NCBI GenBank assembly: GCA_035235625.1
Contig: CP141148.1
Coordinates: 30,629,057-30,693,056 of the forward strand
Reading direction: 5' to 3'
DNA from: Saururus chinensis
Taxonomy: Eukaryota > Streptophyta > Magnoliopsida > Piperales > Saururaceae
DNA length: 64,000 nt
Part shown: positions 22,303 through 33,215 of the stretch, piece after piece
Layout of the letters: every line of letters begins with the position of its first letter
Numbering within the stretch: the stretch's first letter is position 1
Translations under genes and position numbers: made by a program
Notes under the pieces: generated by a model
What the model saw: the letters and a program-made list of their open reading frames with translations, nothing else
Told to the model about the DNA's origin: nothing
Databases searched by the model: none

Positions 22303-22788
22303 CTGCCACAATAAATAGAGATAGTCGCATTTATAAGAAGAGTAACTCATTTTCAAGGCGTATGAATTTCGCAATGACCGAACTGATAACGACCTTATTA
22401 ATTTAAGTTTAACTTACAACGTTGAGAAAGATTTGTCAAACAAATAATTCGTAATTGTAAGTGCCGTCAACTTTACCTTCGTTATAAAGATGATTTAAAA
22501 AAAAAACCTTTACATTTTAGATTGGCATTTTTTTTCTCCTCATTTTTTTGTAACATGCAAGTCTATCAGTTACTACATTAAGATTGCAGCTCCCAAGGCT
22601 GTTGTACTATAAATTTTTTTTTAAAAAAAAGAGACTAAAATTAAAGGACAAAAGCAAAGCTCCGAGAAATAGAAGTAGAATACTGCTACGCCCAGTAAAC
22701 ACAGCAGTTAACATAAATTGTGATCTAAAGAGTAGATAACTTGGGTATTGATGTTTTTTTTAGCAATCGCGTGGATGCTCTTTTGAAT
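22303..22788. other. GLR intron 1, 3' part
   Basis: This is original intron sequence between the copia insertion and the exon 2 acceptor. It is AT-rich with poly-A/T runs. Nothing coding is seen. Confidence 0.5.
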
Positions 22789-23019
22789 TGTAAAAACTGT
22801 CAATGGTCCAATGGCATTATTTTGTAATTTTTATCATCTCTTTTGGGTAGTTAAGTATGTAATTGTTAAGGGTTTTACCCATTGCCATCTCTGTATTCCG
22901 GCTGTGAATGAAAAAAAAAAGCCGCCATTGCTACAGAAAACAGAACAGTAAAACAGAGATCGTTAGTTATCTTCTTATCTACACCTCCCTTTGATCTTTC
23001 TCATTAACAACTATACACA
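22789..23019 (+). repeat. 5' LTR of the intronic copia element
   Basis: About 231 bp, starting TGTAAAAACTGTC and ending near CTATACACA. It matches 31733-31963 through 'gttaagggttttacccattg', 'ctctgtattccggctgtg' and 'cttcttatctacacctccct'. The exact 3' boundary is set by TG...CA and is approximate. Confidence 0.8.
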
Positions 23020-25877
23020 TTTTCAAATTCCTTAAGTTTTCTAAAACCACCATGGCCTCGTGTTCAAGTTTATCGGAGAAGTTTTCGTTACCGGTGTTCG
23101 ATGGAGAAAACTACAATTTTTGAAGCATACAAATAAGAACTCTCTTTATATCTAAAGAATTATGGGATTATATTGAAGAAGGTTATGAAGAACTACAAAA
23201 TGGAGAAGACCTAGCTACTTGGGATGAAGAGAAGAAGAAGGCATACAAAGAGAACAAAAAGCAAGATGCAATAAATTTTAAGGGACCGAAAAGGTAATTG
23301 CTATCAAGCTTCAAACTTTAGAGAGAAATTTTGATAATTTGGAAATGAAAGATAGTGAGAATGTTCAAGATTTTAATTCTATAGTTGCTATTATTGCTAA
23401 TCAAATTAGAAGTTATGGAGATAGTATTCTGGATAAGAAAATTTTGTAAAAAGTGTTAAGAAGTATGCCGACCAAATTTGAGCATGTTGTGGCCGCTATT
23501 GAAGAGGCAAGAGATTTATTAAAATCAAGCATATATGAGTTGATGAGTTCTCTTGAAACTCATGAAGCAAGAGTGAAGAAATTTACACCTTCCTCAATGG
23601 AGCAAGTTTTCCAATCCAAATTAACTTTTAAAGAGAAGAAGACAGATGGAGGAAATAAATTTTTTTAAAATAATTCATTTCAAGGTAGAGGGAAGGGAAA
23701 TCAGAGAAATGAAAGAGGTAAATATTAGAAGCAAAGCAATGGTTGTTTCATTTGTAAGAAGACAAATCATGTTGCCGATGATTGTTATTTTAGATGTAAG
23801 AGATGCAAGCACCACACTCATGCTCCAAAGGGTTACAAATTTCAAAACAAGGACTAAGCACATTTCATCGAAAATGAGAAAAATAAACAAAGCCACTTGT
23901 TCTACTCTTGTATGAACACACAAGAAGAAAGGAAATAAGTTTGGTACTTGGATAGTGGTGGTAGTAACTACATAACAGGCAACTGGGAAAGCTTTGTGAA
24001 GCTTGAACAAAATAGCAACTCTTAAGTAAAGCTAGGAGATAAAAAAATGCAATAAGTTGAGGGCAAATGAAACATAGCCGTCTAAACAAAGAAAAATGAT
24101 TCTAAACTCATTCATGATGTTCTTTATGTTTCCGGTTTAACACAAAATCTGCTTAGTGTGAGATAATTTACGCAAAGAGGCTATAAAGTATATTTTGAAA
24201 AAGACGAATAAATGTGTTATAATTGATAAAAACATGGGGCAAGTGATAACAAAGGTCAAAATGACATCAAACAAGGTATTTCCATTAGTCATATCTCTTT
24301 GTGCAAACTATGGAATGAAGGTTATTCATATGGATGATTCTCTATTATGGCACTTAAGGTTTGAGCATTTGAACTATAGGAGTCTTAGTTTACTCAATCA
24401 AAAGAAAATGGTCTTTGAACTTCTAAGAATCAATCAATAAGAAAATATTTGTGACGGGTACATATATGAAAAACAACATACACTACCATTTTCGGAGTCG
24501 ACTTAGAGATCAAAAGAACCGCTTGAGCTTGTTCATGCCAACATATGTGGACCAACAAATACACCATCATTCAACAAGAAAATGTATTTTCTACTATTTG
24601 TAGATGATTTTACAAGAATAATGTGGGTTTATATTATAGATGTCAAATCGGATGCATTTTCTATATTTGTGCTATTATAGAAAATCAAAGTGGAAAAAAA
24701 TTAAAAACCTTGAGGACCGATCGTGGTGGTGAATTTACATCAAGAGAATTTTAGAATTTTTGCAAAGAACACGACATCAAGAGAGATCTAACAACTAGCT
24801 ATACACCTCAACAAAATGGTGTAGCGGAGAAAAGAAATATAACTATTGTGGAGATGGAAAGAAGTATGCTAAAAGGGAAGAATCTCCCAAACCAATTTTG
24901 GGTTAAAGCCGTTAATACGGCCACCTATATTCTTAATAGATTTCCAACAAAGGTGGTTCAAAACATGATATCATATGAGGCATGACATAAGAAAAAATTA
25001 CAAATAAGTTACTTCAAAATTTTTGGATGCATTGCTTATGCTCATATTCTTACACAAAAGAGAAGTAAATTTGATTAGAAAGGAGAAAAGTGCATCTTCA
25101 TTAGATATAGTGAAGAATCTAAGGCTTATAGGTTTTTTAATCTTAAAACAAAGGAATTAGTGATCCCAAGAGATGTAATCTTTGATGAAGAATGGTCATG
25201 GAACGTTGAAGAAAACAATGGTCGATCTTCAAAAGTGTATATAGAAGATGAAAAAGAAAGGGTTTCATCAAGTCATCAAACTTTAAATGGTTCATAATCA
25301 CAAAGCATAAAACTCCTCCAAGGCAAGATTCAAGTATAAAGCAAATTAATCCAAATAATATGGATAGTGATTCACCTCTAAGAAAGGTACATTTACTTTA
25401 AAAATTTTATGATGAATGTGATGCTGCATTCTCTTCTTGTGATCTAACAAAATTTAAAAATGCTTCAAGAGAAAAAGTTTGGATAGAAGCAATGGATAGT
25501 GAGATGAATATGATTGAGAAAAATAAGACATGAGAGTTAGTTGATAAACCTCAAGATAAAGAAAGGAAGATCTACAAACTCAACAATGCCTTGTATAAAC
25601 TCAAACAAGCTCCAAGAGCATGAAATAACAAGATTGATAAGTATTTTAAACAAAATGAATTCCAAAGAAGCCTAAGTAAGTCATCTCTCTATGCAAAGAA
25701 AGAAGGTATGCATGATTTTATCATTATTTGCCTTTATGTTGATGATTTGATTTACACTAGCAATAGCCCAGGATGATAAAAAAATTCTAATATACTATAA
25801 AGAAAGAATATGAGATGACTGATCTAAGACTCATGACATATTTTCTTGGAATATAAGTGAAACAAAAAGGTGGTAAA

Positions 25878-26047
25878 ATATTCTTATCTCAAGAAAATAT
25901 GTTGATGATTTGTTGAAAAAGTTTAATTTGACTAGTAATCTTATCTCAAGAAAAATATGTTGATGATTTATTGAAAAAGTTTAATTTGACTAATATTCTT
26001 ATCTAAAGAAAAATATGTTGATGATTTGTTGAAAAAATTTAATTTTA
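25878..26047 (+). repeat. 60-bp tandem repeat inside the copia fossil, left half
   Basis: Three copies of a unit of about 60 bp ('atgttgatgatttgttgaaa' then 'aagtttaatttgactagta') precede the solo LTR. Three more follow it at 29718-29890. The solo LTR therefore landed inside an already expanded array of about six units. Confidence 0.8.
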
Positions 26048-31396: not shown

Positions 31397-31732
31397 CCGA
31401 AAACATCCCATCTTCAAGAGCATAATGTGTAGCGGTTTGGTTAAGGAGAATTCTTAACGATCTCAAGTGTGAGCAAGTAAATCCAATAATAATTTTTTGT
31501 GATAACATGTCGGCCATTGCAATGACTAAAAACATAATCTTTTATAAAAGAACAAAACACATTGAGTTGAGACATAATTACATTAGAGAATTAGTGGAGA
31601 AAGGTGAAGTTGAATGAAGTTCATTAAGACCAATAATTAATTAGTCGATGTGTTCACCAAGCGGTAATAATTGAAAAGTTTATATATTTTATAAACTATA
31701 TAAAAATTACAAATTAATAAATTAAGAAGGGG

Positions 31733-31963
31733 TGTTAAAAATGGGCTAATAGTCCAATGGTATTACTTTGTAATTTTTATCATTTCTTTGGGTAGTTAAG
31801 TATGTAATATGTTAAGGGTTTTACCCATTGTCGTCTCTGTATTCCGGCTGTGTGAATGAAAAAAAAAGCTGCCATTGCTACAGAACAGTAAAACATAGAC
31901 TTGTTCGTTGTCTTCTTATCTACACCTCCCTTTTTGATCTTTCTCATTAGCAACTATTACACA
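31733..31963 (+). repeat. 3' LTR of the intronic copia element
   Basis: It starts TGTTAAAAATGGG right after the purine tract and ends near CTATTACACA. It is the partner of 22789-23019. Confidence 0.8.
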
Positions 31964-33215
31964 TCTTCTATTTTCTGTTTCATTCTTTGATCCTCTCCAA
32001 CAAAAACCGAGATGCTCTCGCTTTTGATAAAAATCAACTCACATTGGGGGTTGGACCATAGTCACAAAGTTTTGTTTTGGGTTTATTTTGGAGAAGGGTT
32101 ATTCTGGGTTGGTTTCATTTGGTCTTGGTAGTGTAAAGAAAAGTGATAAAAAGATAGGTATTTACTTAAAATCTACTTCATCTTTCCTATATTAATAGTT
32201 TCATTTAAAAAAAAAAATTTGGTTGAAAGGTAAAAATTATATATTTAAAAGAAAGAAAAATAAATTTATGGTACTCTATTTTAAACTATTAATATAGAAT
32301 AATCTTTTTTGTCAGCTATTAATTTAAGAGGAAGGAGTACATCTTATATGTAAATAACCAAATTACTAACACGTATTTAATAAATCAAATAAGAAACACA
32401 AAGAAAAACCCGTAACCCAGACCAAAAGAAAGTAAACAAAAAAAGACTGTAACTCAACCCAGACCGAAATAAACAAAGAAACAAACCAAAAAAATATGCC
32501 AAAATTTTCGTTTTATGCTCGAAGCAGCATAAATAACAAGAAACGAAACACATCATGCCAAGAGTAGAACATGGAACAAGGGTATAACTAACCTCGTCAA
32601 TCTCAAAATTATATGGAAATAAAAGAAAGCAAATTATTAGAATTTATAAAAGAGGTATAAATCAAGAAACAAAATTCATAATCAGAAATAAATATTCAAC
32701 TCTTAAGAGTACATGCAGCATTTGTTTGAAAATTTCTTCAGTTCATAAGGACTGGAGTTAAAAGAGTGCGGAACTAGGCGCAAACATAACCAAATTAGGA
32801 TAAAACTAAATGGGAAAATAAAGAGTGGAAAAGCTTCAGCTTAAAAAATGATTCTCTACAATAATCTATTTAAATTCAATTTTAGTTTTCTATGTCAACT
32901 GGTTATATACTAGGAGCAATAAGCAAAGCCGAAGAGGCCAGAAGTACCGGATTAGTGGAGGAAGCTTTCACCAGTGTCTCTCTGGAAAAGCTATCTTTCT
33001 GTGAGAAAAGAATGGCTTACCATATGAATGTGAATTCTAAGGCATTTTTTTATAAAAGATATTCCAAGAGATTAAGTGTAAACACATTATGAAGTTTTAG
33101 GACACGATAACCATAACACAAAGCTTATTCTTGTCAACTAAAGGTCTGAGCCTTCGTGTTGCATCAACAAGATGAACGGTTTAAGGAAATTAGGGAGGTA
33201 AATAATAAGGTCTAC
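31964..33215. other. GLR intron 1, 5' part
   Basis: Original intron sequence. It includes a Stowaway-like MITE (32169-32342). A 66-codon frame at 32892-33092 is not a recognisable protein. Confidence 0.5.
32169..32342. mobile_element. Stowaway-like MITE in GLR intron 1
   Basis: Left end 'ctacttcatctttcctatat' then 'taatagtttcattt'. The right end carries the complement, 'gctattaatttaagaggaag' then 'gagta', with an internal second copy of the motif ('aaactattaatatagaat'). Confidence 0.55.

Follow-up and report, generated by a model that had tools for sequence, protein, structure and literature searches.

The first intron of a GLR receptor gene of Saururus chinensis has been stretched to 10.9 kb by transposons, and we think it likely that a Ty1/copia element hit this gene while it was working, that splicing over the lengthened intron continued and that function was lost only late. 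The gene lies on the minus strand of the window, by which we mean the whole 64,000-nucleotide stretch analysed here (C9:30629057-30693056), in an assembly of 516 Mb and 11 contigs that was searched for related loci. It has five exons and four introns of phases 1, 0, 1 and 0, and it counts 965 codons including the final stop. Its parts, in window positions and with a slash at splice junctions, are these:

Exon 1, 33216-33483, minus strand: 268 nt with a phase-1 end; a signal-peptide-like start and the beginning of the amino-terminal domain
Start codon ATG, 33481-33483, minus strand: ACA or ACG in the sibling loci described below
Intron 1, 22303-33215, minus strand: 10,913 bp, GT-AG, phase 1
Exon 2, 20969-22302, minus strand: most of the ANF_receptor domain and the start of S1
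Exon 3, 20540-20855, minus strand: a weak donor, A/GTTCTGT, also present in the siblings
Exon 4, 20032-20438, minus strand: a Lig_chan match in its first half and a premature stop inside
Premature stop TGA, 20229-20227, minus strand: in frame in exon 4, codon 710 of 965
Exon 5, 19374-19943, minus strand: ends in the normal stop TAA at 19376-19374

An earlier note on this DNA had proposed that exons 1 and 2 join in phase at consensus splice sites, and this proposal is well borne out. With the donor CTGCAG/GTAGACC and the acceptor TGTGGCAG/GTCTGG, the two exons join in frame. Exon 2 alone matches the ANF_receptor profile from position 44 to 352 (229.5 bits, E 7.7e-68); once exon 1 is fused to it, the match grows to positions 6-352 of 353 (248.1 bits), and the alignment with AtGLR3.4, a plant GLR and the best match of exon 2 among solved structures (E 1.7e-67), runs across the junction. 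Lig_chan matches were obtained for exon 3 (E 9.4e-10) and for the first half of exon 4 (E 1e-16). Going by its resemblance, the gene may be akin to clade 2 of the family.

A search of the genome with the exon 2 protein gave at least 33 matches, a lower bound for large families, and placed eight close siblings besides the window copy, 78-89% identical in protein per matched stretch, six of them on C4 at 6.266-6.498 Mb and two on C5 at 40.190-40.222 Mb. These siblings were also the best matches beyond the window (75-78%) in a search with exons 4-5, which gave at least 17, and six of their first exons, two of them partial, share 73.5-83% protein identity with exon 1 of the window copy. Their splice sites agree with those proposed here: the donor reads CTGCAG/GTAGAG in five of the six read and CTGCAA/GTAGAG in the sixth, and an AG acceptor stands at the same position in all eight (GTGGCAG in seven, GTGCAG in L013), followed by GTCT as the first bases of exon 2 in seven and by GCCT in L014. 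As far as fetched, the frame across exons 2-5 is open in three siblings (L010, L011 and L012) and broken in the other five, whose lesions lie in exon 2. L015 was fetched with just 1.5 kb of upstream DNA, in which exon 1 was not found; the fetched stretch of L014 is without exon 4, and an exon 4-5 match at C4:6477805-6478830 may belong to it. Only the final 21 bp of exon 1 fall within the stretch fetched for L002 (C4:6264266-6267717). The weak donor of exon 3, considered as a candidate lesion of the window copy, was rejected as such, the same degraded donor being found in the siblings.

What identifies the long intron as a filled version of a short one is an empty site in the sibling genes. In all six siblings compared, no more than 43-78 bp separate the counterparts of the two window flanks, the one adjoining exon 2 (to 22796) and the one adjoining exon 1 (from 32534), and these intervening bases are found in the window directly after the 3′ long terminal repeat (LTR) of the copia element, from 32003 (five of five aligned siblings). 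Because the sibling intron is colinear with both flanks, a single intron must have been split at this place and exons 1 and 2 are exons of one gene, as the earlier note had supposed. The same colinearity on both sides of the insertion, together with the fact that exon 2 alone begins inside the ANF_receptor domain, makes it highly improbable that exon 1 is a remnant of a different broken copy that happens to lie nearby and that the gene begins near 22302, although the large distance and a duplicated intron piece in a C5 sibling could be cited for such an arrangement.

The inserted DNA is composed of the following elements, among which those without a strand are marked as unstranded:

Ty1/copia element with nested inserts, about 22789-32002, plus strand (antisense to the gene): defined by an LTR pair, the alignment of its LTRs with other copies, copia-type pieces and the sibling empty site
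5′ LTR of the copia element, 22789-23023, plus strand: 3′ end and primer-binding site apparently lost
58-bp tandem array, left half, 25879-26057, plus strand: about three units, inside the copia element
Insert 1, 26058-29717, unstranded: 3,660 bp, ends TGTAACGTCC...GGGTCGTGACA, solo-LTR-like
58-bp tandem array, right half, 29718-29891, plus strand: about three units, inside the copia element
Insert 2, about 30314-31395, unstranded: about 1.08 kb, terminal repeats like CAGGGCCGGCTC, hAT-like
3′ LTR of the copia element, 31733-32002, plus strand: ends CTCCAACA; sibling-like intron resumes at 32003 (AAAACC)
Further insert outside the copia element, about 32053-32529, unstranded: about 475 bp
Promoter-proximal extra DNA, 33572-33856, unstranded: about 285 bp, 88 bp upstream of the ATG

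The LTR pair, with TG...CA ends, was found at 22802-23032 and 31748-31976. The left edge of the element is either 22789, where the LTR starts with TGTAAAAAC, or 22798 if AAAAC is the target-site duplication; AAAAC flanks the element on both sides only with the edge at 22798, and the edge at 22789 gives no duplication. Among the pieces of the element, which lie on the plus strand, SH3_retrovirus (1.3e-13) was the sole Pfam match above the cut-off, with gag_pre-integrs (6e-06) and Retrotran_gag_2 (0.0014-0.021) below it. Two short frames in the polymerase part (29829-30188 and 31426-31614), where the frames are broken up, had no Pfam match; by eye, this part bears some likeness to copia-type reverse transcriptase and RNase H. 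Minus its nested inserts the element measures about 4.5 kb. Together, the LTR pair, the plus-strand gag, pre-integrase and SH3 pieces and the insert boundaries confirm the 9.2-kb antisense copia insertion with two elements inside it.

Insert 1 has TG...CA ends and is flanked by a 5-bp duplication, ATTCT (26053-26057 and 29718-29722); it is probably an LTR element reduced to a solo LTR, which by its terminal motif may be of gypsy origin. The two of its frames that were scanned gave no Pfam match, and relatives of 71-85% identity lie in the intron of a C5 sibling, near a reverse transcriptase frame. The roughly three units of the 58-bp array on either side are explained by the landing of insert 1 within the array, and since 58 is not a multiple of three, this array of about six units shifts the frame. 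Insert 2, by its motif a putative hAT element, is bounded by a degenerate 8-bp duplication (CCAAATAC/CCGAAAAC, six of eight bases equal); two other copies show its inverted ends, which have become degenerate in the window, and it is present in high copy number, with at least 53 matches (40 of 1013 candidates having been scored). The further insert outside the copia element matches genome repeats piecewise and is absent in five of five aligned siblings. At gathering thresholds, Rfam reported nothing within intron 1.

In the four siblings with both exons in one fetched stretch, intron 1 is 1,186, 1,191, 1,249 and 1,583 bp long. Minus all inserts, the window intron comes to about 1.22 kb and hence to sibling length. 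The earlier estimate of about 1.7 kb without insertions is right for removal of the copia element alone, which leaves 1,699 bp, but too high overall, the intron shrinking to about 1.2 kb once the insert of about 475 bp is removed as well.

The locus is not simply an intact gene of the kind that gene callers would split wrongly: it has a premature stop of its own, its start codon has shifted, and near its promoter stands DNA absent from the siblings. At codon 710, where the window copy has TGA, six of the seven siblings read have CGA and the remaining one CAA. The frame is otherwise open, with a single stop in 964 codons and no frameshift; a complete frame to the normal stop is thus lacking, and the TGA leads us to class this member of the GLR family as probably a pseudogene or a broken allele. 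The sibling ATG stands 27 nt upstream of the one used here, in all four loci in which the flanking motif occurs (L011 is without it); the window has TTG at that place (33508-33510), and the signal peptide is kept with the displaced ATG. Farther upstream, the extra DNA of about 285 bp and a long TA run separate promoter parts that adjoin in four of four siblings. Given the domain layout of GLR proteins, the stop would cost the protein the S2 half of its ligand-binding domain as well as its last membrane span, a predicted loss that would leave the present allele probably non-functional or becoming so.

Could the gene still be functional, if the TGA were a minority allele or a fault of the assembly and the long intron were tolerated as in other plant genes with intronic transposons? 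Apart from a single codon the frame is open, the signal peptide remains in frame from the new ATG now that the sibling ATG is lost, and in one C5 sibling, where exon 1 (L004) is open and so are exons 2-5 as far as fetched (L012), about 13.8 kb lie between exons 1 and 2. Yet the assembly shows the TGA, the step from CGA to TGA replaces C by T within a CpG and is thus of a common kind of real mutation, and the promoter-proximal DNA may lower expression. On balance, we regard continued function as not very likely.

The time of the insertion can be estimated from the LTRs, which differ at 22 of 227 aligned bases (Kimura two-parameter distance, K2P, 0.105). At an assumed substitution rate of 1.3e-8 per site per year, the copia insertion would be about 4 million years old. 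The intron itself diverges from seven siblings by K of 0.129-0.138, and the lower LTR value indicates that the element arrived after the window copy had parted from its siblings.

If the gene had drifted neutrally since then, its frame should have decayed. We simulated neutral decay in 2000 runs per setting over a branch length of 0.0525, half the LTR divergence, with 0.05 or 0.1 indels per substitution, 80% of them frameshifting. The neutral expectation since insertion is a mean of 4.4 stops and 6-12 frameshifts, compared with one and none in the 2.9 kb of the window gene; at most one stop with no frameshift occurred in fractions of 0.0005 and 0 of the runs under the two indel rates, and at half the time in 0.002-0.02. 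The intron alignment shows 12-17 gap openings per 66-71 mismatches, which is above the simulated indel rates. Compared with seven siblings with usable exon 4, the pairwise ratio of nonsynonymous to synonymous divergence (dN/dS) ranges over 0.11-0.16 for exon 4 and over 0.09-0.18 for exon 3; L014 was left out of the ranges for exons 3-5 for its broken alignment, which gave 0.45, 0.29 and 0.45. From so low a count of stops and frameshifts we conclude that the long intron, for much of the time it has existed, probably belonged to a working gene and was spliced there, the stop being a late event.

The same figures bear on the possibility that the gene died of the copia insertion itself, its transcription or splicing being blocked, with neutral drift ever since. 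The premature stop, the loss of the sibling start codon and the extra promoter DNA would all suit such a history, as would the broken frames of five of the eight siblings, which make gene death common in this family and include L013, likewise with a retroelement in intron 1. However, the 2.9 kb of the gene hold just one stop and not a single frameshift, against about four and 6-12 predicted, and this finding and the exon 4 dN/dS of 0.11-0.16 are hard to square with death upon insertion, which we therefore judge unlikely.

Several points weigh against our preferred history of a working gene that was lost late. Should LTRs accumulate mutations faster than genes do, the insertion would be younger and the decay test would lose force: the observed outcome occurs in 0.04-0.17 of the simulated runs when a quarter of the time is allowed, and in 0.22-0.43 when an eighth is. 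For exon 2 (0.31-0.66) and exon 5 (0.31-0.58) the dN/dS values are no more than moderately low, and being pairwise they lump together what preceded the insertion and what followed it. Scanned by themselves, exon 5 and the second half of exon 4 had no Pfam match. The TGA may be a rare allele or a mistake in the assembly, and the splicing of exon 1 to exon 2 is a prediction from the genomic sequence.

Under the late-loss history, an antisense Ty1/copia element would have entered the conserved first intron of a clade-2-like GLR copy on C9 and would then itself have been hit by an LTR element, probably now a solo LTR, and by a hAT-like element, while other small elements would have entered intron and promoter. 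With the intron edges untouched, the transcript should still have been spliceable from exon 1 to exon 2 across 10.9 kb. Selection would have held the frame open for much of the time after the insertion, until a later C-to-T change at a CpG created the stop in exon 4.

We also looked in the exons for excess CpG decay as a sign of methylation and found none, with 19 changes in the window copy versus 18 in the siblings overall (window copy to siblings: exon 2, 5:5; intron 2 and exon 3, 3:2; exon 4, 9:6; exon 5, 2:5). Over the parts compared, heavy methylation spreading from the insert is therefore not supported.

Long first introns are not confined to the window copy. Three of seven measured loci have more than 6 kb between exons 1 and 2: besides the window copy, these are a C4 sibling (L006 to L013) with a distance of 6,793 bp and a C5 sibling (L004 to L012) with one of 13,793 bp. 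Antisense LTR-element DNA also lies between exons 1 and 2 in two of the six measurable siblings. In the C4 intron (L006, L047 and L013; C4:6407476-6417771), a pair of repeats of about 400 bp, 80% identical, encloses frames that match reverse transcriptase and RNase H and run antisense to the gene, L013 being among the five siblings with broken frames. The C5 stretch (L012, L039 and L004; C5:40219296-40236618) holds a reverse transcriptase frame opposite to its gene, along with relatives of insert 1 and a partly duplicated intron piece, on account of which the C5 exons 1 and 2 may not form one gene. The large LTR elements in first introns are thus antisense in three of three loci. With distances of about 1.2-13.8 kb between exons 1 and 2 within one subfamily and one genome, gene models may lose exon 1.

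By analogy, one might go further and imagine that the first introns of this subfamily are repeated landing sites of large LTR elements that are kept in antisense orientation only, and that one or more copies preserved an open frame behind a silenced 9-kb insert over millions of years, their expression needing a system of the EDM2/IBM2 kind that reads intronic heterochromatin; this we hold to be distinctly unlikely. The nearest functional parallel is RPP7 of Arabidopsis thaliana, where COPIA-R7 in intron 1 is reported to carry H3K9me2 and to recruit EDM2, and where EDM2 and H3K9me2 are reported to suppress premature polyadenylation at the 5′ LTR of COPIA-R7, which acts as a polyadenylation site (PMC7529245). 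In both cases a plant receptor gene that belongs to a clustered family has a copia element in its first intron, ahead of the main coding exons; the window gene differs in its premature stop, and the copia element in it is antisense to the gene.

Transposons within introns are common in plants; for Arabidopsis, the survey by Le et al. 2015 gives 206 of 241 intragenic elements as intronic, and most of the elements there are short, about 17% reaching at least 1 kb (PMC4417168). The element described here is likewise intronic but, unlike most of those covered there, measures 9.2 kb and is nested. Likewise, the layout of five exons and four introns is a common one for GLR genes, found in 47% of those of habanero pepper, in 64% of those of pear and in about half of those of Arabidopsis (PMC10975470); the window gene shares it and differs in an intron 1 about ninefold as long as those of its siblings and in the stop in exon 4. 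Among the titles and abstract openings listed in searches of the literature, none reported a transposon-filled first intron in a GLR gene. A transposon-stretched intron is an ordinary kind of event in plants; more informative in this case is the frame, which seems to have remained open long after the insertion. The locus offers a worked example, complete with empty-site siblings, of how long a receptor gene may tolerate a transposon-filled first intron, and it serves as a warning that a locus that is whole by its splice sites can hide a private stop and a shifted start codon.

A mosaic was suspected at two places in the gene. Within intron 1, the left part (K 0.26-0.27) diverges from the siblings twice as much as the right part (0.13); this candidate was dropped, as L003 and L004 show a likewise twofold difference (0.148 and 0.073), while the near-identical pair L003 and L005 shows none (0.033 and 0.027). 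Near the end of exon 3, sibling identity falls from about 92% to about 80% (window 20600-34240 versus 19374-20600), and across seven siblings Ks is 0.13-0.24 in exon 2 versus 0.73-0.93 in exon 4. Unlike the one within intron 1, this mosaic of exons 1-3 versus exons 4-5 held up on checking, and the drop would reflect either a gene of mosaic make-up or the border of an old gene-conversion tract.

Elsewhere in the window, we noted the reading frame of a PPR protein at 10890-12557 on the plus strand (PPR_2, 1.1e-37), a self-complementary stretch of about 1.6 kb at 13561-15136 that is 62.6% identical to its own reverse complement and is perhaps a foldback element, a tRNA-Gly(gcc) gene at 55466-55536 on the plus strand, which Rfam also matched, and a 6-phosphogluconolactonase-like frame at 61591-62118 on the plus strand (Glucosamine_iso, 3.8e-47).

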